Program-made: the position numbers and the translations under genes
In this document: piece after piece, positions 29,045 through 40,425 of the stretch
Layout of the letters: every line of letters begins with the position of its first letter
Position numbering within the stretch: the first letter of the stretch is position 1
The notes under the pieces: generated by a model
Told to the model about the DNA's origin: nothing
The model's database searches: none
Seen by the model: the letters and a program-made list of their open reading frames with translations, nothing else
Origin: Streptacidiphilus sp. P02-A3a
Lineage (GTDB): Bacteria > Actinomycetota > Actinomycetes > Streptomycetales > Streptomycetaceae
Length of the DNA: 64,000 nucleotides
Direction of reading: 5' to 3'
Assembly (NCBI RefSeq): GCF_014084105.1
Contig: NZ_CP048289.1
Span: 6,085,922 to 6,149,921 of the forward strand

Positions 29045-30016
29045 TCACGGCCGGGTGAGCAGCGCCGCGTCCTCGGCCGGCAGCCAGCTGCCGGCCGGTC
29101 GGCGCAGCCAGCCCTCGCGCGCGCTCAACGCGCGGGCGGCCTCGCACAGCGCCGCCAGCCCGGGATGCCGCAGGTCGGGGCGGTGCACCAGGCTGACCAG
29201 GCTGAGTGGTACCGGTCGAATCAGTGGCCTGGTCACGGTGTTGGGGATGTCCGGGCCGCCGGTGGTGGTCAGCACCGGATCGCGGTGCCGCCCGACGTAG
29301 TGCGCCATCTCGTCCACGCCGACCGGCGGCGAGTACGGCGGCGCGGCGGCGAGGCCGTGCTCGGCCAGCAGGCGGCTGCCGAGGTCGCTCCACTCGGTGG
29401 TGGCCGGGTTGCCCGCGCAGATGTCGACCCGGTAGCCGTGGAGCTCGCGCAGCGGGACCGACCGCCGCGCCGCCAGCGGATGGTCCTCGGCCAGGATCAC
29501 CGCCATCGGCTCCACCCGCAGCGGGACGTGGTGCAGTTGCTCGCGGACCCGGGCCGGCAGGCCGGAGAAGCGGCCGAAGGAGACGTCGAGCCGCCGGGCC
29601 AGGATCTCGGCCGCGCCGGCGGCCAGCCCGCCGTGGAACCGGGCCAGCAGTTCGGCCTCCGGGGCGTTGCCGCGGGCCAGGGCGAGGATCCGGTGCGCGG
29701 TCAGGTCCGGTCCGGCCAGGCCGGGGCTGCTCAGGTCGACCAGCAGCGGCCCGGCGGTGTCGCCGCGGGCGATCTCGTCGTGCAGTGCGAGCAGCCGGAC
29801 GGCCCTGGGCAGCAGCCGCTCCCCGGCGGATGTGAGTTCCACCCTGCGAGTGCTGCGGTCGAACAGGTTGAGGCCCAACTGCCGTTCCAGGGACTGGATG
29901 TCGCGGCTGACGGCCTGCTGGGCGAGCGGGATCCGGGCGGCGGCCCGGCCGAAGTGCAGCTCCTCGGCCACGGCGACGAAGGCCCGCAGCAGGCGGGGGT
30001 GGATGTCGGCGGGCAC
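29045..30016 (-). CDS. LysR-family transcriptional regulator
   Basis: 323 aa, GTG start. N-terminal winged helix-turn-helix: LLRAFVAVAEELHFGRAA...AVSRDIQSLERQLGLNLFDR, followed by a periplasmic-binding-like effector domain. Divergent from an MFS gene, which it probably regulates, through a TGACA-N9-TGTCA dyad at 30045-30063 that contains the LysR T-N11-A pattern. Confidence 0.9.
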   Translation of the reverse strand: MPADIHPRLLRAFVAVAEELHFGRAAARIPLAQQAVSRDIQSLERQLGLNLFDRSTRRVELTSAGERLLPRAVRLLALHDEIARGDTAGPLLVDLSSPGLAGPDLTAHRILALARGNAPEAELLARFHGGLAAGAAEILARRLDVSFGRFSGLPARVREQLHHVPLRVEPMAVILAEDHPLAARRSVPLRELHGYRVDICAGNPATTEWSDLGSRLLAEHGLAAAPPYSPPVGVDEMAHYVGRHRDPVLTTTGGPDIPNTVTRPLIRPVPLSLVSLVHRPDLRHPGLAALCEAARALSAREGWLRRPAGSWLPAEDAALLTRP

Positions 30017-30044
30017 CGGCCCAGGTTAACAACCCCGGCCGGAT

Positions 30045-30063
30045 TGACAACACAACTGTGTCA
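30045..30063. promoter_or_regulatory. Candidate LysR box
   Basis: TGACAACACAACTGTGTCA: TGACA and TGTCA arms separated by nine bases, in the divergent region 29 bp upstream of the lysR start. Confidence 0.5.
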
Positions 30064-30120
30064 GTCGCCCGGAAAAGGTGTTGGACCAGCGGTGACGTCA
30101 CCGCCAGGCTGGTGCCTCCA

Positions 30121-30159
30121 CCCCAGTGCCCAGCCCCAGTGCCCAGCCCCAGTGCCCAG
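30121..30159 (+). repeat. Three exact 13-bp tandem repeats
   Basis: CCCCAGTGCCCAG occurs three times head to tail in the LysR/MFS divergent region, between the LysR box and the MFS start. The length is not a multiple of three, in keeping with non-coding DNA. Confidence 0.85.
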
Positions 30160-30185
30160 CCCGGGGCCGTCCCGTCAGGAGCCCT

Positions 30186-31403
30186 GTGTTCTCCGGTTAC
30201 CGCCGCATATTCGACGCCCCCGGCAGCGCCGCCTTCGCCGTCAGCGGCCTGCTGGCCCGGTTCCCGATCGGGATGACCGGCGTCGGTGCGATCTTCATGA
30301 TCACCGCGGCACGCGGCTCCTACGGCCTGGCGGGTGCGCTGTCCGCCACCGTGCTGCTGGTGGTGGCGGCGGCCGGGCCGCAGCTGGCCCGGCTGGTGGA
30401 CCGGCACGGACAGGCCCGGGTCGCGGTCCCGGCGCTGGTGGTGGCGGTGGCCGGCGGGCTGGCGGAGCTCCTCTGCCTGCGCCTCCACGCCCCCGGTTGG
30501 ACGCTGTTCGTCAGCGCCGCCGTCACCGGCCTCGGCCCCAACTTCGGTTCGCTGTCCCGGGCCCGCTGGTCGGCGCTGCACCAGGGCGACGAGGCGGCGC
30601 TGCACAGCGCGTACTCGCTGGAGTCGGTGCTCGACGAGCTCTGCTTCATCCTCGGTCCGCTCGCGGCGACCGCGCTGGCCACCACGCTCTTCCCGGCGTC
30701 CGGCTTCCTGGCGGCGATGCTGCTGCTGCTCGCGGGCGGGCTGGCGTTCTGCGCGCAGCGACGCAGCGAGCCGCCGGTGCGCCGGGGCCCGGCCGGTACC
30801 CGGGGTTCGGCGCTGAGCTCGCCCGGGCTGCGGATCCTGGTCGCCTCGCTGCTGGCCACCGGCGGGGTGTTCGGGATCATCGAGATCACCACCATCGGCT
30901 TCGCCGACGCCCACCACCACAAGGCCTACGCCAGCCTGGTGCTGGCCTGCTACGCGTTCGGCTCCTGCCTGTCCGGGCTCGCCTTCGGCAGTTGGCGGCC
31001 CAGGGCGAGCGCGGCCGAACGCCTGCCGCGGTGCCTGCTGGCGATGACCGTCAGCCTGGCTCCGCTGCCGTTCGTGGGGAGCCTGCCGGTACTCGCCGGG
31101 GCGCTGCTGCTGGCCGGGCTGACCACCGCGCCGACGATGGTGACCAGCATGGCCCTGGTCCGCGAGTGCGTCCCGGCCGTCCGGCTCACCGAGGGCTTCA
31201 GCTGGGCCACGACCGGCCTGCTGCTCGGCGTCTCGGCGGGAGCCGCGGTGGGCGGCTGGGCGGTCCAGCACCTGGGACCCGGTGTCGGCTACCGGATCCC
31301 GGTGGCGACCAGCGCGCTGGCACTGCTGATCGCCCGCGCCGGTGCCCGCGCACTGCGCGGGCACCGGCAGGGGGTCCGTACCGACGGTCAGCCGACGGTG
31401 TAG
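30186..31403 (+). CDS. MFS transporter, 12 helices
   Basis: 405 aa from GTG 30186, which has AGGAG four bases upstream; the frame upstream passes through the tandem repeats and is not coding. Twelve hydrophobic segments, with ARLVDRHGQARV as motif A. Similar to small actinobacterial MFS proteins of unknown substrate. Its 3' end overlaps the convergent protease gene by 16 bp. Confidence 0.85.
   Translation: MFSGYRRIFDAPGSAAFAVSGLLARFPIGMTGVGAIFMITAARGSYGLAGALSATVLLVVAAAGPQLARLVDRHGQARVAVPALVVAVAGGLAELLCLRLHAPGWTLFVSAAVTGLGPNFGSLSRARWSALHQGDEAALHSAYSLESVLDELCFILGPLAATALATTLFPASGFLAAMLLLLAGGLAFCAQRRSEPPVRRGPAGTRGSALSSPGLRILVASLLATGGVFGIIEITTIGFADAHHHKAYASLVLACYAFGSCLSGLAFGSWRPRASAAERLPRCLLAMTVSLAPLPFVGSLPVLAGALLLAGLTTAPTMVTSMALVRECVPAVRLTEGFSWATTGLLLGVSAGAAVGGWAVQHLGPGVGYRIPVATSALALLIARAGARALRGHRQGVRTDGQPTV
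31338..31368. terminator. Stem-loop inside the 3' end of the MFS gene
   Basis: Perfect 14-bp arms (GCCGGTGCCCGCGC) around ACT, within the coding end of the MFS gene and 20 bp beyond the convergent protease stop. It can end the leftward protease transcript. Confidence 0.65.
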
Positions 31404-34400
31404 CTGTACGGCAGGGCCGCCAGTACGTCACCGGAGACGGACAGCAGGTACTCGTTGGTCTCGCTGATCGCGTTCGGCGCGGACACCAGGTAGAGCACAC
31501 CGTGCACCTGGCTGCCCTTCGCCCCGCTCGGGGTGACCGTCACCTGGAGGGTGACGGTGGCTCCGGGCTGGACCAGCACCGGGTGCGCCGGGGCCGCCGA
31601 GGCGTTGACCGAGGCCGCGAACGGGTCGCCCGCGCTGGAGGACACCGCCTGGTCGAAGCCCTGGGTGAGCGCCGAGGCGGTGACCGTGGTGCTGCCCGCC
31701 GGAGCGCCGGCGACCGGGAACGGCCCGACCTGCTGCACGAACGCGGCCCAGAGGCCGGGCGCGACCCGGTCCCCGGAGGCGGCGACCGAGCGGGCGGTGG
31801 AGACCGTCGAACCGTTCTGGGCGGCGGTCAGGCTGCCGAAGACGTCCGGCAGGCCGGTGTTGTTCTCCAGCTCCAGCTGCGCCGGGGTGGTGGACACCGC
31901 CGTCGACTCGACCGCGGCCGTGCCCGGGGGCACCAGGAAGCTCGGCGGGAACGCGCTGCTCACCGGCAGCGGCACGGTCGCCGGGCCGATCGGCGCCAGC
32001 GCGAGCTGGGCCAGCGTGTCGAGCCGGCCGTCGACGCCCAGCCACTGCGGCGCGCCGGTGGTGTTCCGGTAGCTGACCTCGACCTGGGCGGGCTTGCCCG
32101 CCGCCAGCCGGGTACCGGTACCGGTGGGCAGGCCCTTGGCCGTGGCCCGGTCCCGGTCGAAGCCGATGGTGCCGGTGTACTGCTGGGAGAGCTCGGCGCC
32201 GCTCACCGGGTTGGCCACCTCGACCACGAACCGCCAGCGTCCGGGCACCGGGTCGAGCGCGGTGGTGGACAGGGTCGGCCCGGTGCCGGTGGGCACGCCC
32301 TGCGCGTTCAGCAGGTAGTTGCTCTCCGAGTCGACCGGGTTGTTGTCCGGACTGATCAGCACGCCCTGGACGGCCACGTCGGAGTCCTCCGCGAGGGCCA
32401 GGCCGACCTGGAGGTCCTTCTTGCCGCTGGGCACGTCGAAGGCGTAGGTGGAGGTCTGCGCCTGGGCGGCCTCGCGGGCGTTGCCGCCGGTGATCGTCCC
32501 GGTGAAGCTGCCGGAGCCGCCGGAGGTGTCGACCAGGGCGCGCAGGGTGACCGGGACGCTGAGCCGCTGCCCGTGCGAGCCGGTGACGTCGACCGACTCG
32601 GAGCTGTCACCGCTGCTCGCCGGGGTGGTCAGCCGGACGTGGAAGGTCGCCGTGTGTCCGGGCGCGACCGTCAGCGAACGGGGGCTGACGCCGCCGTCGG
32701 TGACCGCCCGCTGGGTGGCGGTGTCCAGCAGTACCGGACCGGTGAACCCGGCCGTCCCGGACGCCGTGTAGAGGATGGCGGTCCAGGTGCCCGCGACCGG
32801 GTGCGCCACGTCGACCAGGCCGAAGTTGGCCGACACCGCGCCGCCCTGCGGCCTGGTGTTGGTCTCGAACCGGCCCGAGGGGTCGAGCAGGGTCAGCCGG
32901 ACGACCGGGGTGACCGAGGCGCCGCCGGACTGCTGGGCCGCGCCCTGCCAGGCGATGGACGCGGCCAGCCGGGCCGCGCCGGACGGGACCTGGAAGGTGG
33001 TCTTCCGCTCGACCCAGGACGCGCCGTTGGTCGGGTAGACGAAGGGCTGGTCGGTGCTGGAGTCGAGCTGGACCGTCTGGGTGCTGTCGGCCAGCGGCGC
33101 GAAGGCGCGGGTGGCCGCGCTGACCGTGGTCGGCTTGGTGCCGGTGTTGGCCACGGTGACGTTCTCGTTGTGGACCGAGCCGGGGTGGCCGGTGATGTCG
33201 AGCTGACCCGTGGTCACCGCCAGGCTCTCGGCGGGGTCGGCGGCGGATCCGGCGTGGTAGCCCTCGGCGGCCTGGACCGCGGCCCGGGCGTCGACCAGTC
33301 CCGCGCCCTGCTCCGAGGACGGCAGCCCGAGGTCCGCGGCGGTGCCCTCCAGCAACTGCTTCACCAGCGCCGGGGTGGGCGAGGCGCCGTGGTGGGTGTT
33401 CCGGTAGGCCTCGATCACCAGCGCCGCCGCACCCGAGGTCAGCGGCGCGGCCTCGCTGGTCCCGCCGAACGCCTGGATGTCGCTGGGCCGGCCCGCGTAG
33501 TTCACGCAGTCCGAGTACCTGGCGGTGTCGGCCGAGCAGAGCGCCCAGTTGGCCTCGCCGGGCGCCACCAGGTCGACGGTGCCGCCGTCCTGGGTGTAGC
33601 CGCCCGAGGAGAGGGCCGAGATCTGGTTGTTCGCCCAGGTGCCGTTGGACTGCCGGGCCAGCGCGTAGCCGGTCTGCTCGTAGAGCTGGGAGTCGGTGGA
33701 GGCGCCGACCGAGATGACGTTGGGGTCCGAGGCCGGGTTGCCGATGGTGCCGGTGACCCCGGCGTCCCCGGAGGACGCGACCACGGTGACCCCGGCCGCG
33801 GCGGCCTCGCCGTTGAACACCTGCAGGGTGTCGCCGAGCCCGCTGTCCGGGGTCTCGTTCTGGATGAAGGACTCGTTCAGGACGTCCACGTGGGCCACGG
33901 TGACCGCGTAGTTGATGGCCTGGAGGATGGACGAGGTGCTGAACACGTTGCCGTCGGCCTTCAGCACCACCAGCGAGGCGCCGGGCGCGACGCCCTGGAT
34001 CCGGATGTCGCAACCGGCCGGGAGCGGGTACGCCGGGTTGACGTACTGCGAGAGGTCGTAGGAGACCCGGCCCTGGGCCGCGATCGAGGAGGCGTCACCG
34101 AAGGCCTCACCACCACCGGTCGGGGCGCTGGTGCCGACACCGGAGAAGTCCTCGTAGTCGGCGACCACGTGCTGGCCGTCGGCCCGGATGAAGTCGGGGT
34201 TGTCCGGGTCCAGGCCGTCGGCTATCAGTCCGACCTTGACCCCGGAGCCGTCCACCACGGCGGAGGCGCCGGGCGCGCCCGGGCTGCTCGCCACGTGCAT
34301 GGAGTAGAGCGCTTCCGGCTCCAGCAGCGGCTTGGACGGGCTGGACGGGCAGACCGCCTGCGGGCTCGGCGCCGCCTGGGTCTTCCGGGCCGAGGGCGTC

Positions 34401-34855
34401 GCGGCGCCCTTGCCCGGGGCGGCCGGGGCGGTGGTGTGCGCCGGGGCGGTGGTGTTCGCCGGGGCCACTGGCACGGCCAGGTCCGGCACCACCGAGGCCA
34501 CCGCCGGGTCGGCCGCCAGCGCGGCCTCCAGCGCCGGGCTGACCGTGGCCGAGAACGCGTTGCCGAGGACATAGCTGACGATGTGCGTCGCCCCGGCCGC
34601 CCTGGCCTCGGCGATCAGTGGCTGCTGTGCGGCAGCGGTCTGCTGTTCGCGCGCGCTGAGATGGTCCGCGTCCGCGGGGACGGCCGCCAACTGGTCCTTG
34701 AGCACCACGATCACCGGGACCGGGGCGCCGCCGGTCGCGGTCGTGGCCGGGGCAGCGGTCACCGGTGCGCCGTTGGCGTTGGCGCCCATGGTCAGGACCA
34801 CGGACGCGGCGGTGATGGTGACCGCTGCAAGTTTCGCCTTGCGCCAGCCGATCAT
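31388..34855 (-). CDS. Secreted subtilase-fold serine peptidase with sedolisin-like catalytic residues
   Basis: 1155 aa from ATG 34855 (AAGGGA upstream). Residues 1-29 are a signal peptide and ~46-130 an I9-like propeptide. The S8-type core spans ~200-520: VGLIADGLDP (D213), and GGTSEAAPLTSG (S467). Where subtilases have G-H-G-T-H the sequence is GGGEAFGDASSIAAQG, with no His but E250-x3-D254; the oxyanion Asn is replaced by D364 in VVASSGDAG. E-x3-D, S-G-D and G-T-S in that order are the sedolisin (S53) pattern. Residues ~560-1155 are repeated beta-sandwich modules ending in NEYLLSVSGD. Probably an extracellular protease; activity at acid pH would be predicted. Confidence 0.85.
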   Translation of the reverse strand: MIGWRKAKLAAVTITAASVVLTMGANANGAPVTAAPATTATGGAPVPVIVVLKDQLAAVPADADHLSAREQQTAAAQQPLIAEARAAGATHIVSYVLGNAFSATVSPALEAALAADPAVASVVPDLAVPVAPANTTAPAHTTAPAAPGKGAATPSARKTQAAPSPQAVCPSSPSKPLLEPEALYSMHVASSPGAPGASAVVDGSGVKVGLIADGLDPDNPDFIRADGQHVVADYEDFSGVGTSAPTGGGEAFGDASSIAAQGRVSYDLSQYVNPAYPLPAGCDIRIQGVAPGASLVVLKADGNVFSTSSILQAINYAVTVAHVDVLNESFIQNETPDSGLGDTLQVFNGEAAAAGVTVVASSGDAGVTGTIGNPASDPNVISVGASTDSQLYEQTGYALARQSNGTWANNQISALSSGGYTQDGGTVDLVAPGEANWALCSADTARYSDCVNYAGRPSDIQAFGGTSEAAPLTSGAAALVIEAYRNTHHGASPTPALVKQLLEGTAADLGLPSSEQGAGLVDARAAVQAAEGYHAGSAADPAESLAVTTGQLDITGHPGSVHNENVTVANTGTKPTTVSAATRAFAPLADSTQTVQLDSSTDQPFVYPTNGASWVERKTTFQVPSGAARLAASIAWQGAAQQSGGASVTPVVRLTLLDPSGRFETNTRPQGGAVSANFGLVDVAHPVAGTWTAILYTASGTAGFTGPVLLDTATQRAVTDGGVSPRSLTVAPGHTATFHVRLTTPASSGDSSESVDVTGSHGQRLSVPVTLRALVDTSGGSGSFTGTITGGNAREAAQAQTSTYAFDVPSGKKDLQVGLALAEDSDVAVQGVLISPDNNPVDSESNYLLNAQGVPTGTGPTLSTTALDPVPGRWRFVVEVANPVSGAELSQQYTGTIGFDRDRATAKGLPTGTGTRLAAGKPAQVEVSYRNTTGAPQWLGVDGRLDTLAQLALAPIGPATVPLPVSSAFPPSFLVPPGTAAVESTAVSTTPAQLELENNTGLPDVFGSLTAAQNGSTVSTARSVAASGDRVAPGLWAAFVQQVGPFPVAGAPAGSTTVTASALTQGFDQAVSSSAGDPFAASVNASAAPAHPVLVQPGATVTLQVTVTPSGAKGSQVHGVLYLVSAPNAISETNEYLLSVSGDVLAALPYSYTVG

Positions 34856-35172
34856 CGATATCCCTTCGTCAGAAGTGACGTCGGGGGGAGCGGACCGAGT
34901 CGCGGTCGGCACTTGCGAGACGTGCGTATCATCTCGGAACACCCCTCCCGGCAAGCTCAGGCATTCCAACGCACTTGATGCCACTCTGACAAGGGGGTGA
35001 TTCGCCCGGCTCCGGGGCTGAACGGAAGGCATGAGTCCGGTCTGCCTCCCACCGCAGCTCAGCGCCGTTCGCGGGGCGCACCTGCAACGATGCCACCTGA
35101 TGGATCATCAGATATTGGCACCCCGGCCCGGGGTGGCGACAGCCACGACCGGCATGACTGACGACATGTCAG
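34856..35172. promoter_or_regulatory. Upstream region of the secreted protease gene
   Basis: 317 bp with no credible gene. It contains a two-part dyad at 35091-35120 (TGCCA, CTGATG-GAT-CATCAG, TGGCA), described separately, and the downstream flank of the glycosidase gene's terminator. Confidence 0.5.
35091..35120. promoter_or_regulatory. Nested inverted repeat, candidate operator
   Basis: The inner arms CTGATG/CATCAG (35097-35102 and 35106-35111) are perfect; the outer arms TGCCA/TGGCA (35091-35095, 35116-35120) add a second shell. Located about 240 bp upstream of the protease start. Confidence 0.4.
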
Positions 35173-35230: not shown

Positions 35231-37225
35231 TCACTCCCAGGCGAGGACCAGCCACCCCCGGTCCGGGAGCTCCTGCTCGACGCACACCCGCGCGCCGAGC
35301 ACGGCGGCGGGCACCGGCCTCGGCTGCGCCAGCGGCGCCAGCAGGGTCGCCCGGGGCTCGGTCGGCGCCCGCGGGTAGTCCACCCGTACCCGCGCCGGAT
35401 CGGCGCAGCCGTTGCCGACCGCCAGCCGCCGTACGCCGTTGGCCCGCGACAGCTGCGGGATCAGGTACGGGCCGCCGCTGACCAGCGGCAGCCGTGGCTG
35501 GTCGCCCTCCAGGAAGCGGACCATCGCGTGCAGCAGGCGCTGCCCGTCGTCGTTGTACGGGAGTTCGTCGACCGCGGTGGCCGCCAGCACCGCTACCCGG
35601 CCGCCGAGTTCGTTGCGGAAGCCGAAGCGCCCGGTCCCCCAGTCGCGGCCGTCCGGGGTCACCACCGCCGTCCACCGCCGGGCCGCGTCGACCGGCTCCA
35701 GCCGGGCCAGCGCGGGCTGGACGTTGACGCTGAGCAGCATGCCCACCGCGCTCGGGTCGTCCGCCAGCAGTACCTGTTCGGCGGCGTAGGGGCCGGAGGC
35801 CGTCCGCTCCTCCCGGTCGACCAGCCGGGCCTCGCGCAGGCCGAGCAGGGAGCCGAAGCCGCGCTCGACCAGGACCGCGGCGGCGACGCCGTCCAGCAGC
35901 AGCCCGCCCGCGAGCAGCGCGCGCACCTCGTCGTCGTCGAAGGCCCGGGCGAGCTGCCCGAACAGCGCGGCCACCGGCGCCGGACCGGCGGTGATCGGGA
36001 CGCCGAACCGCAGCAGGAAGTCCGCGGCCGGTCCGGGACCGGCCGCCAGCGCCTCCAACTCGGGTGTGTGAGCCTGCACATGGGCGGCCGCGTCCTGCTT
36101 GAAGGGCACCGAGACGCCCTCGGTCACCAGGTCGCGCGGCTGCTGGTCGGCGATCCAGTCCAGCGCCGGGCGCGACCGCGACAGCAGGTCGCCGACCTCG
36201 GGGAAGCGGTCGGCCCGCCGGGCGTGCATCGGGTGGACGTTGAGCAGCAGCGCGTCCGATCCGGCCAGTTGCGCGGCGGCCATCTCCGACCAGGTCTGCG
36301 TGTCCGACTTGGACCAGGCGGTGTGCGGCCAGTTCTCCACCTCCGGCTCGCAGCCCGCGGTGGCCGGGCGGAGCGCCCGCTGGAGTTCCAGCGTCCATAC
36401 CGAGAAGCTGAGTTCGCGTCCGGGGGCGTCGCTGTAGGGGGCGAAGTGGGGCCGGTGGGCGACCCGGCCCTCGACCGCGAGCGCGTCGAACAGGGCGGGC
36501 CAGTCCCGGCCTTCGATCGAGGTGGTGTCCAACCAGGAGCTCATCAGCCCGAGTTGCGAGCGTCCACCGGAGCGTTCGGCGACGGTGTCGGCGAGCAGCC
36601 GGGCGACCTCCAGTTGCGCGGTGCGCCAGACCTGCTGCAACTGGGCCCGCCAGGGGTGCGGCGGCCCGGGGGCGGTGATCGCCGCGACCAGCTGTTCGCG
36701 GGTCGGCCGCGCGCCGCTGAGTTCGGCGAAGCGTCGCAGCATCAGCGGTTCGAAGCCGCCGCCCCAGGACAGCGGGGCGTGGTTCTGGTAGCGGAAGTCG
36801 TCCTCGATCCAGAGCACCCGGAAGCCGAGTTCGGCGTACCGGCCGTAGTGGTCGGTGAGCCAGCGGCGCCAGCGGGGGCAGGCGAACGAGGCCTGGGCGG
36901 TGGCGGTCTCGCCGGTGGGCGAGACCATCGGGGCGAAGCCGAGGTCCTCCCGGCGGCCCCGGTCGGCGTGGCCGACGGTGACCCACGGGTTGAGGCTGAC
37001 CCCGATCCCGGCGTCGAGCAGGACCGACCGGGCCTCGGCGACGGTCTCGAACCAGCTGTCGGCCTCGGCCCCGGTCAGGTGCCCGGTGTACAACTCCTCG
37101 GCGTCGAGCAGCAGTACGACCTCGTCCACCGAGGCGGCGGCGCAGGACTTCGCCAGCGCGACGGCGTCCGCGCGGGCGTCCGGGCCGGGGTGGATCTGGA
37201 ATCTCAGGTGGTAGCGGGCCGGCAC
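35231..37225 (-). CDS. Putative intracellular glycoside hydrolase of unassigned family
   Basis: 664 aa, GTG start, no signal peptide. The N-terminal half looks like a TIM barrel (FQIHPGPDARADAVALAKSC, VLWIEDDFRYQNHAP with adjacent acidic residues, LMSSWLDTTSIEGRDW). The second half (LLAGGLLLDGVAAAVLVERGFGSLLGL) resembles the middle domain of GH42-like enzymes, followed by a small beta domain. It is the last gene of an ABC sugar-importer operon, 10 bp after a permease gene, so it should process the imported glycan. I cannot assign a family or identify the catalytic acids with certainty. Confidence 0.65.
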   Translation of the reverse strand: MPARYHLRFQIHPGPDARADAVALAKSCAAASVDEVVLLLDAEELYTGHLTGAEADSWFETVAEARSVLLDAGIGVSLNPWVTVGHADRGRREDLGFAPMVSPTGETATAQASFACPRWRRWLTDHYGRYAELGFRVLWIEDDFRYQNHAPLSWGGGFEPLMLRRFAELSGARPTREQLVAAITAPGPPHPWRAQLQQVWRTAQLEVARLLADTVAERSGGRSQLGLMSSWLDTTSIEGRDWPALFDALAVEGRVAHRPHFAPYSDAPGRELSFSVWTLELQRALRPATAGCEPEVENWPHTAWSKSDTQTWSEMAAAQLAGSDALLLNVHPMHARRADRFPEVGDLLSRSRPALDWIADQQPRDLVTEGVSVPFKQDAAAHVQAHTPELEALAAGPGPAADFLLRFGVPITAGPAPVAALFGQLARAFDDDEVRALLAGGLLLDGVAAAVLVERGFGSLLGLREARLVDREERTASGPYAAEQVLLADDPSAVGMLLSVNVQPALARLEPVDAARRWTAVVTPDGRDWGTGRFGFRNELGGRVAVLAATAVDELPYNDDGQRLLHAMVRFLEGDQPRLPLVSGGPYLIPQLSRANGVRRLAVGNGCADPARVRVDYPRAPTEPRATLLAPLAQPRPVPAAVLGARVCVEQELPDRGWLVLAWE

Positions 37226-37235
37226 GGCCGCCTCC

Positions 37236-38111
37236 TCATTTGACGCTGCCGGCGACCAGGCCGGAGCGCCAGAAGCGTTGCAGGGACAGGAACAGGACGA
37301 CGAGGGGGACGGCGGAGAGCATCGCGGCGGTGATGACGATGTTGAACGGGACCGAGGAGCTGCCGATCCCGCGCAGCGACTGCCAGCCGACGATGCCGAC
37401 GGTGACCGGCTGCAGGTTGCTCTTGGCCAGCATCAGCACCGGCAGCAGGTAGTTGGTCCAGATGCTGACGAACTGGAAGAGGAAAACGGTGACCAGCGCG
37501 GGCGCCATCACCCGCATGGAGATGGTCGCGAAGATGCGGAACTCCCCCGCTCCGTCCATGCGTCCGGCCTCGATCAGCTCGTCCGGGACCGAGGCCCCCG
37601 CGTAGATCCGGGAGAGGTAGACCCCGAACGGGCTGACCATGCTCGGCAGCAGCACGCCCCAGTAGGTGTTCACCAGGTGGACCGGGGAGAACATCAGGTA
37701 CAGCGGGATGGCCAGCAGCGGCTGCGGAATCAGCACCGCGGCGAGCACCAGGTTGAAGGTGAACTCCCGCCCCCGGAACCGGTACTTGGCCAGGGCGTAG
37801 CCCGCCATCGCGGACAGCAGGGTGCTCACGGCGGCGCCGCCGACGGCGTAGACGGCGCTGTTCAGCAGCCAGCGCGAGAAGATCCCGCCCTGCTCCGCGA
37901 AGACCGTGCGCACGTTGCCGAAGAAGGCGAAGTGGCCGAACCAGAAGCTGTTGCCGGTGAACAGCCCGGAGCTGGTCTTGGTGGACGAGACCAGCAGCCA
38001 CCACACCGGGGCCAGGAAGTAGACGGTGGCCAGCAGCATCACGCCCAGGGTCAGCCACCGGGTTATCTCCAACTGCCTTTTCCTGGGGCCGGTCCCGGTC
38101 GTGTCGGTCAC
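37236..38111 (-). CDS. ABC sugar transporter permease (MalG type)
   Basis: 291 aa, GTG start overlapping the previous stop (GTGA). Six membrane helices and the cytoplasmic EAA loop GASVPDELIEAGRMDGAGEFRIF that contacts the ATPase. No ATPase is encoded here, so a shared MsiK-type ATPase is expected, as in other streptomycete carbohydrate importers. Confidence 0.92.
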   Translation of the reverse strand: MTDTTGTGPRKRQLEITRWLTLGVMLLATVYFLAPVWWLLVSSTKTSSGLFTGNSFWFGHFAFFGNVRTVFAEQGGIFSRWLLNSAVYAVGGAAVSTLLSAMAGYALAKYRFRGREFTFNLVLAAVLIPQPLLAIPLYLMFSPVHLVNTYWGVLLPSMVSPFGVYLSRIYAGASVPDELIEAGRMDGAGEFRIFATISMRVMAPALVTVFLFQFVSIWTNYLLPVLMLAKSNLQPVTVGIVGWQSLRGIGSSSVPFNIVITAAMLSAVPLVVLFLSLQRFWRSGLVAGSVK

Positions 38112-39052
38112 AGCGTTTCCCCCCGTCGTTGCATGAATTTGAGGAAGCCGAAGGACAGCACGAACGCGAGCACCGCCAGGATCACCGACTCCGCCGCCGC
38201 CGCGTTGAAGTTGTTGTTGTTGATCTGGTCGTAGGCGGCGAAGATCGGCGTGTAGTCGCTGCTGAGGTTCGGTGCGACGTTGTGCAGGATGGCGGGCTCG
38301 TTGTAGAGCTGCGCGGTGCCGATGACCGAGAACACGGTGGTCAGCACCAGGGCCGGACGGACCATCGGCACCTTGATGTGCCAGGCGATCCGCAGCGGCG
38401 AGCAGCCGTCCATCCGCGCCGCCTCGCTGAGTTCGGCCGGGATGGCCTGTAGCGCGGAGTAGATGATCAGCATGTTGTAGCCGGTCCAGCCCCAGGTCAG
38501 CATGTTGCCGATGGTGGGCGCCAGCAGCGCGTTGGAGGTGAGGTCCAGGTGCAGGCCCAGGTGGTGGGCGGCGGCGGTGATCGGGCTCAGGCCCGGCGCC
38601 ACCAGGTAGGACCACATGATGGCGCCGATCACGCCGGGGAGCGCGTAGGGCAGGAAGAAGGCCAGCCGGAAGAACCGCTTGAACAGCGTCCGCCTGGCGT
38701 CCAGCAGCAGCGCCAGGGCGAGCGCGAGCAGCAGCATCACCGGTACCTGGACGATGCCGATGAGCAGCACCCGCAGCAGCGAGCCACGGAAGGCCGGATC
38801 GTCCAGTGCGGTGCTGTAGTTGCCCAGGCCCGCGAAGACGGTGGTGGGCGCGGACAGGCCGAGGCCGTCGTGGTGGGTCCTGAACAGGCTCTGGTAGACG
38901 GTGTACCCGATCGGCGCGAGGTACATCCCGGCGAAGAGGACGGCGAACGGGGCGATGAAGGCGGCTGCCGTCCTGGACTGTCGGCGCTGGTGGTGCGCGG
39001 GGCGTCGCGGGGTCCGGGCGACGGCCGGTGGTTCGGTGGTGGCGCTGGTCAT
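38108..39052 (-). CDS. ABC sugar transporter permease (MalF type)
   Basis: 314 aa from ATG 39052, with GAGAGGGA upstream. Six membrane helices and the EAA loop AIPAELSEAARMDGCSPLRIAW. Follows the binding-protein gene with a 50-bp gap. The extended open frame upstream is a shadow of the binding-protein gene. Confidence 0.92.
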   Translation of the reverse strand: MTSATTEPPAVARTPRRPAHHQRRQSRTAAAFIAPFAVLFAGMYLAPIGYTVYQSLFRTHHDGLGLSAPTTVFAGLGNYSTALDDPAFRGSLLRVLLIGIVQVPVMLLLALALALLLDARRTLFKRFFRLAFFLPYALPGVIGAIMWSYLVAPGLSPITAAAHHLGLHLDLTSNALLAPTIGNMLTWGWTGYNMLIIYSALQAIPAELSEAARMDGCSPLRIAWHIKVPMVRPALVLTTVFSVIGTAQLYNEPAILHNVAPNLSSDYTPIFAAYDQINNNNFNAAAAESVILAVLAFVLSFGFLKFMQRRGETL

Positions 39053-39102
39053 GGTGGGAATCCCTCTCCGACCGTCGGGGCGGGGTGCGCGGCTGCCGCC
39101 GG

Positions 39103-40425
39103 TCAGCCGCCGGAGACGCTCAGGCCCTGCTGCTTCATCTCGGAGACCGTCTTGCTCTGCACCGTGCCGAGGACCGCGGGGAGTCGGGCACTGCCTGCCT
39201 CCACCGTGCCGAGGCCGTCCGCGAGGTCGTTGGAGGCCTGGGTCATCGTCGGGCCCCACTGCCATTCGGTGTTGATGTGCGGCATCTCGGCCTTGAACAC
39301 GTCGAAGATGGTCTGGCCGCCGTAGAAGGGGTCGGCGGCGGTCAGCGCCGGGTTGTCCAGGCCGGCGGTGGCCGCCGGGTAGATGCCGGTGACCTTGATC
39401 AGGTTGCTCAGGCTGCCGGGGTCGGTGCTCATCCAGGTGGCGAACTCGGCGGCCTGCTTGCTGTCCTTGCAGCCGCTGAGCACGGCGGTGGCCGAGCCTC
39501 CGTCGTTGCCGTACTGCGGGTTGGCGGCGTCCCACACCGGCATCGGGGCGACCGCCCAGTCGCCGGAGGTGGTCTTCACGCTCGACGCCAGGATCGGGGT
39601 GTCCCAGACCGCGTTGACGTCGGAGAGGATCTTGCCCTTGGCCATGTCGCTGTACAGCGAGGGGTCGTAGCTCGGGTCGTTCTTGAGCAGCCCCTGGCTC
39701 TCCAGGCCCTGCCAGAACCCGGCGACCTTCTGGTTGGCCGCGCTGTCCACGCTGACCTGCCACTGGTCGCCGCCGGTGCCGAACCACTGCGCGCCCGCCT
39801 GCCAGGCCAGGCCCGCGTAGTTGTACGCGTCGTTGCCGAAGTCGCCGAGGTAGACGGACGGGTCGGCGTGGTGCACCTTGGCCGCGTCGGCGGCGTACTC
39901 GGCCCAGGTCGCCGGGGGCTGGGTGATGCCGTACTTGGCGAACAGGTCCTTGCGGTAGAGCAGCGCCATCGGGGCGGTGTCGACCGGCGCGCCGTAGGTC
40001 TTGCCGTCGATGGTGACCTGGTTCCAGGTCCAGGCCGCGAACTGGCTCCGGTCGGCGCTGACGTCCTGGGTGACGTCCTGCAGCGCCCCGGCCGCCGCGA
40101 AGCTGGGCAGCGTCTCGTAGCCGACCTGGGCCAGACAGGGGGCGTTGCCCGCCTTCACCGCGGTCAGCATCTTGGTGTAGCCGCCCTTGGCACCGGAGGC
40201 GGTGGTGTCGAAGGTGACCTGGATGTCCGGGTGGGACTTGTTCCACAGCGCGACCGACTGGGCGTAGCCCGGTGCCCAGCCCCAGAAGTCCAGCTTCACC
40301 GGGCCGCTCGCGGTGCTCCCGGTGCTGCCGGAACCGCCGGAGCCGCTGGAACCGCATCCGGCCACGGCGGTGGCCATGGCGGCGGTGGCCACGACGACGG
40401 CAACGCGCATCCATCTGACTCTCAC
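39103..40425 (-). CDS. Sugar ABC transporter substrate-binding lipoprotein
   Basis: 440 aa from GTG 40425, with GAAGGAG eight bases upstream. A lipobox AVAGC (C24) follows a hydrophobic signal, then a Gly/Ser linker and a family-1 solute-binding fold (VKLDFWGWAPGYAQSV, PATWAEYAADAAKV). First gene of the operon binding protein - two permeases - glycosidase. The ligand is likely an oligosaccharide; identity unknown. Confidence 0.92.
   Translation of the reverse strand: MRVRWMRVAVVVATAAMATAVAGCGSSGSGGSGSTGSTASGPVKLDFWGWAPGYAQSVALWNKSHPDIQVTFDTTASGAKGGYTKMLTAVKAGNAPCLAQVGYETLPSFAAAGALQDVTQDVSADRSQFAAWTWNQVTIDGKTYGAPVDTAPMALLYRKDLFAKYGITQPPATWAEYAADAAKVHHADPSVYLGDFGNDAYNYAGLAWQAGAQWFGTGGDQWQVSVDSAANQKVAGFWQGLESQGLLKNDPSYDPSLYSDMAKGKILSDVNAVWDTPILASSVKTTSGDWAVAPMPVWDAANPQYGNDGGSATAVLSGCKDSKQAAEFATWMSTDPGSLSNLIKVTGIYPAATAGLDNPALTAADPFYGGQTIFDVFKAEMPHINTEWQWGPTMTQASNDLADGLGTVEAGSARLPAVLGTVQSKTVSEMKQQGLSVSGG

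Follow-up and report, generated by a model that had tools for sequence, protein, structure and literature searches.

Subtilases of the D-E-S type, with a Glu at the position of the catalytic His and the acid on the strand, were reportedly named by Siezen et al. 2007, and for S53-like peptidases a conserved-domain entry exists. In PMC11593635, clan SB is divided into its two families by the place of the catalytic acid along the sequence, and the serine-carboxyl core is described as an E-x3-D pentapeptide combined with an Asn-to-Asp replacement. The Glu of the S53 sedolisins is given as homologous to the His of the S8 subtilases in PMC6278154. The protease gene analyzed here is located in a window of 64,000 nucleotides, the whole stretch of DNA that was analyzed, from Streptacidiphilus sp. 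P02-A3a (contig NZ_CP048289.1, positions 6,085,922 to 6,149,921; positions below are those of the window). With a probability of roughly 80%, we read its product as a secreted, probably acid-active endopeptidase in which an S8 body carries a sedolisin-type active site, with roles for E250, D254, D364 and S467; its side-chain geometry, activity, pH and substrate are what we infer. A description of a family with a subtilase body and this E/D/D/S set was not found in the literature searched, with subscription papers mostly outside reach.

The gene occupies positions 31388 to 34855 of the minus strand, on which all of its features lie, and is an open frame coding for 1,155 amino acids plus a stop. 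Its translation reproduces exactly the residue numbering of an earlier sequence-only reading (E250, D254, D364 within SSGDAG at 361 to 366, S467 within GGTSEAAP at 464 to 471, and IADGLDP at 211 to 217). Judging from its sequence, the product is probably a secreted pre-pro-protease with a tail. An RBS-like GAAGGGA (34861 to 34867) lies 5 bases ahead of the ATG, and residues 1 to 29 (34769 to 34855), a basic start followed by a hydrophobic stretch, would be a likely Sec signal peptide. Residues 48 to 128 (34472 to 34714) were assigned to an I9-type propeptide, as claimed before; the modeled region folds confidently and aligns with pro-subtilisins, but the Pfam I9 match (18.7 bits) falls below the cutoff of 21.2. 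The catalytic domain (residues 171 to 537, 33245 to 34345) matches the full profile (1 to 288) of Pfam Peptidase_S8 (PF00082), a model that also matches S53 proteins in part, with 91.8 bits versus a cutoff of 21.8. No NCBIfam model matched the 1,155-aa protein (best E 0.3). The rest of the protein, residues 538 to 1155 (31391 to 33244), is the long beta tail proposed from the sequence: a model of residues 534 to 1155 is all-beta (mean pLDDT 90, pTM 0.87). Tripeptidyl peptidase 2, the best Foldseek match of this tail, was discarded given a TM of 0.24.

On the plus strand, opposite the protease gene, runs an open frame of 1,937 codons (29165 to 34978), which most likely reflects GC-rich codon use; such mirror frames recur in relatives. 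Conserved neighbor genes were sought and rejected, since the 12 largest shared-frame clusters printed (19 loci) overlap the protease gene and are mirror or shifted frames of it. At 35231 to 37225 (minus strand) lies a gene whose 664-aa product matched nothing in Pfam at E 1e-3; next to it are two frames with ABC permease domains (37236 to 40414).

Profile-profile comparison of the family (28 rows) with S8 (54 rows) and S53 (26 rows), a check proposed with the sequence-only reading, gave a score of 305 (E 1.9e-43) to S8 and of 121 (E 3.5e-16) to S53, the latter about equal to that of S8 versus S53 (131). In the family-S8 profile alignment, A212 (34220 to 34222) falls on the catalytic Asp, E250 (34106 to 34108) on the catalytic His, D254 (34094 to 34096) four places further on and D364 (33764 to 33766) on the oxyanion Asn; the Ser, S467 (33455 to 33457), is kept. 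The oxyanion column contains Asn in 54/54 S8 rows and Asp in 26/26 S53 rows. The claims that the GHGTH histidine block had been replaced by one with E250 and D254, and the oxyanion Asn by D364, are supported by this alignment. In the IADGLDP strand, taken before as an S8 feature, the residue at the catalytic Asp position is A212 and not D213.

Conservation was counted over 103 aligned catalytic domains (the protein itself, 80 loci from a contig scan and 22 from genome searches), which correspond to 101 distinct genes, as L021/L060 and L022/L049 are each one gene twice; L019, a second retrieval of the L047 gene, and L005/L017, which are the protein itself, had been left out before counting. Their pairwise identity has a median of 56% and a minimum of 40%, and 30 of the 367 catalytic-domain positions are invariant across all rows. 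E250, D254 and S467 are present in 103/103 rows, and D364 is Asp in 102/103, the exception (L047) falling inside a locally frameshifted stretch. The conservation of these four residues, which appear in sedolisin order as had been noted, is confirmed to be beyond chance. A212 is Ala in 100/103 rows, and E328 (33872 to 33874), an acid in VLNES, is Glu in 102/103. H488 (33392 to 33394), C282, C440 and C450 are invariant in the 103 rows, and C169 is invariant in a 66-row alignment (where it is C130). L047 (also recovered as L019), from Streptacidiphilus sp. 4-A2, has its frame shift near residues 340 to 363, and its open frame spans just 854 aa, due to either decay or sequencing error.

One could propose that the acid partner of E250 is not D254 but D213 on the strand, as in Glu-for-His subtilases. 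D213 is Asp in 93/103 rows and Glu in 4/103, and a protein of such a kind exists: L242, subtilase-like, with a strand Asp and the Glu of DEGRAM at the His position, which was found in 1/346 genomes with a motif-based pattern. We nevertheless consider this arrangement unlikely, because D254 is kept in every row, whereas D213 is replaced by G, A or M in 6/103, and because the profile alignment puts A212, rather than D213, at the catalytic Asp position. L242 itself, read by eye, keeps the oxyanion Asn along with the strand Asp and has Met at Glu+4, unlike the family. From the sequences compared, the family is apparently more than a His-to-Glu subtilase, with the whole putative sedolisin set present.

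The same counts bear on whether this is an enzyme at all. A dead protease that kept its fold for binding only would be consistent with an S8 triad devoid of both non-serine residues, but this reading is quite improbable, as all four sedolisin-type residues are kept over 101 distinct genes (save D364 in the frameshifted L047), also in some rows where D213 has been lost, and the propeptide region has near-invariant positions in the 66-row alignment.

An AlphaFold2 model of residues 40 to 547, built from a 66-sequence alignment, reached a pTM of 0.89 and a mean pLDDT of 84. In it, the predicted strand 207 to 212 ends at A212; E250 is the second residue of predicted helix 249 to 259 (210 to 220 in the model), within which D254 also lies, and S467 is the second residue of predicted helix 466 to 487 (427 to 448 in the model). 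The best PDB matches by Foldseek are S8 peptidases, such as Tk-SP (3afg, E 3.6e-18), and VIA-align gave Z scores of 34.5 to 36 to 50 subtilase entries among the matches listed; with both programs, all 50 among the matches listed are subtilases by title. Pro-subtilisin E with its propeptide (3whi) was aligned by VIA-align with a Z of 35.9 over 340 residues at 2.7 angstroms. The subtilase body deduced from the sequence is thus supported by the Pfam, profile and fold matches alike. A His from elsewhere filling the active site, which would have spoken against the sequence-only reading, was rejected, as the sole invariant His of the catalytic domain, H488, is located immediately beyond the distal end of the S467 helix, which is 22 residues long, about 30 angstroms from S467 by an estimate from helix geometry.

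Direct alignment to S53 placed the residues differently. In a global run of the family-S53 profile alignment, the S53 Glu and Asp fell on R263 and D267 instead of E250 and D254; of the 26 S53 rows in a 113-row alignment, 25 left the E250 column empty. Since R263 is no acid, both mismatches were read as misalignment around an insert relative to S8 (residues 262 to 286, 33998 to 34072), which contains the invariant C282 and separates the base helix from GVAPGA. What supports the equivalence of E250 and the S53 Glu is thus the S8 alignment, together with the published homology of the S53 Glu and the S8 His. In a free 90-row alignment, E, D, D and S share columns in 25/25 family rows and 26/26 S53 rows, while 0/39 S8 rows have all four residues and all of them have Asn in the oxyanion column.

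The C-terminal motif [WFYR][DN]xx[STA]GxG is linked to the calcium site of S53. A first C-terminal pattern, which matched 0/26 S53 rows, was replaced by this one, found in 25/26 S53 rows (the one without it is short at its end) and in 1/54 S8 rows; it occurs in 0/80 family proteins (two end less than 100 residues past the serine) and is absent from the 1,155-aa protein. The Pro-kuma_activ domain (PF09286) gave no match up to E 1 in a Pfam search of this protein, versus 7/9 comparison proteins from its own genome. Besides the protease studied here, that genome (G000) encodes seven or more classical sedolisins, recognized by their Pro-kumamolisin domains (loci L007 to L016). An unusual true S53 member with drifted propeptide and C terminus would explain the identical catalytic set, and the Leu at position 253 in 15/103 rows fits the published fungal S53 motif EA/S/GxLD, but with the S53 propeptide and C-terminal motif missing and a far better match to the S8 profile it is very improbable, and the earlier label of S53-like clan member was too strong.

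The family of the protease at 31388 to 34855 was found mainly in Actinomycetota. Matches at E 1e-50 or better were present in 19/61 genomes searched (its own genome and relatives). The contig scan gave 181 stretches with tblastn E values of 1e-3 or below; the best 80 were retained as family loci, and the record labels of these 80 comprise 74 Actinomycetota and two each of Acidobacteriota, Dormiibacterota and Melainabacteria, the labels outside Actinomycetota to be taken with care. For one record titled Acidobacteriaceae (L117/G352), the phylum draw around G352 returned apparently the Actinomycetota genomes, with identical sizes and an identical contig hit, and its label may be wrong. In an even draw across the phylum, with up to 6 candidates scored per genome, a clear member appeared in 3/296 genomes (its own included), with members scoring 415 bits or more and the next best 92.7 bits. 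Among plasmid records, a family copy was found in two records of one Streptantibioticus cattleyicolor strain, unannotated in that collection; a third match was weak (14%) and was not retained. No viral copy was confirmed in one scan with the 1,155-aa protein as query. The isolate names of several family hosts refer to bog or palsa, and the genus Streptacidiphilus, which the host shares with Streptacidiphilus sp. 4-A2, is acid-loving.

In the mechanism that we propose for an S8 body with a sedolisin-type site, the I9-type prodomain would, after export, aid folding and inhibit the enzyme before being removed. S467 would act as the nucleophile and E250, standing where S8 has its His, as the general base. 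E250 would presumably be held by D254, which lies one helical turn further on and would occupy the space that the catalytic Asp takes in S8 and that is vacated by the Ala of this protein. The oxyanion hole would receive a protonated carboxyl from D364, which takes the position of the oxyanion Asn, and low pH would be needed for this. A counterpoint to the role of D254 is that D213, which neighbors the former Asp site, carries an acid (Asp or Glu) in 97/103 rows and might be part of the active site. As far as its residues indicate, the protease should work like a sedolisin, without being classed as S53. The median isoelectric points of the domain are 4.29 for the family, 4.47 for S53 and 4.83 for S8; they were not taken as proof because the ranges overlap. 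In archaea, S53 has been reported to accompany life in acid, and in acid-loving genomes a negative association has been reported for S8 (PMC6411800).

The S8 and S53 rows of the phylogenetic trees all come from Actinomycetota, and 20 S8 rows come from nine genomes that have family members. By hand, 39 S8 and 26 S53 rows were chosen among some 100 loci, omitting repeats, fragments and some of the intact ones. The first tree, with active-site columns excluded, separated S53 (100), family (99) and S8 (93) and placed the family between S53 and S8. Because the S8 His had not fallen into the E250 column of the first alignment, the motifs were then anchored. In this anchored alignment the base was chosen by pattern in the S8 and S53 rows, so that counts for the base (and for base+4 in S53) hold by construction; L143 was anchored on the wrong HGT, and 5 S8 rows in which no base was found were dropped. 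The tree from the anchored motifs, with more S8 rows, placed the family inside S8 with weak support; for that set, a tree with S8 undivided fared slightly better (p-AU 0.526). A careful tree, of 93 rows after 15 (5 long and 10 near-copies) had been dropped, kept S8 undivided on one side in only 24% of its 200 bootstraps, with S8 branches between the family and S53 in the remaining ones; S8 as one side was not rejected by the AU test (p 0.338). The suggestion of an S8/S53 intermediate is possible and agrees with the first tree; the others break S8 up around the family, with weak support, and the AU tests leave S8 as one side unrejected. Given these trees and the S8-like profile and propeptide, a separate origin of the E/D/D/S site is somewhat favored. 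More tentatively, and at somewhat short of an even chance, a third subtilisin-clan lineage, in soil bacteria, may have built the complete sedolisin site on a subtilase body apart from S53, with the old Asp site turned into Ala. If true, serine-carboxyl catalysis would have arisen twice in the same fold.

Annotation based on Pfam would class this protease as a plain S8 peptidase. An S8 body with an S53-type site would make the exchange of histidine and carboxyl catalysis testable by mutation on a single scaffold, and the family would be a test case for the evolution of catalytic machinery, besides pointing to a source of acid-active subtilisin-like proteases. Compared to the S8 subtilases (Tk-SP 3afg, pro-subtilisin E 3whi), the family is alike in fold, in the GTSxxxP serine, in the C-terminal part of the domain and probably in an I9-type propeptide, but it has Ala for the catalytic Asp, Glu for the catalytic His, Asp for the oxyanion Asn and an additional Asp at base+4. 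With the S53 sedolisins it shares the published core of E-x3-D, oxyanion D and S, although it is devoid of the Pro-kumamolisin propeptide and the C-terminal YDxxTGxG-type motif and matches their profile more weakly. The Glu that replaces the S8 His is common to the Glu-for-His subtilases of the D-E-S type, from which the family differs by the Ala at the strand position and the invariant Asp at base+4.
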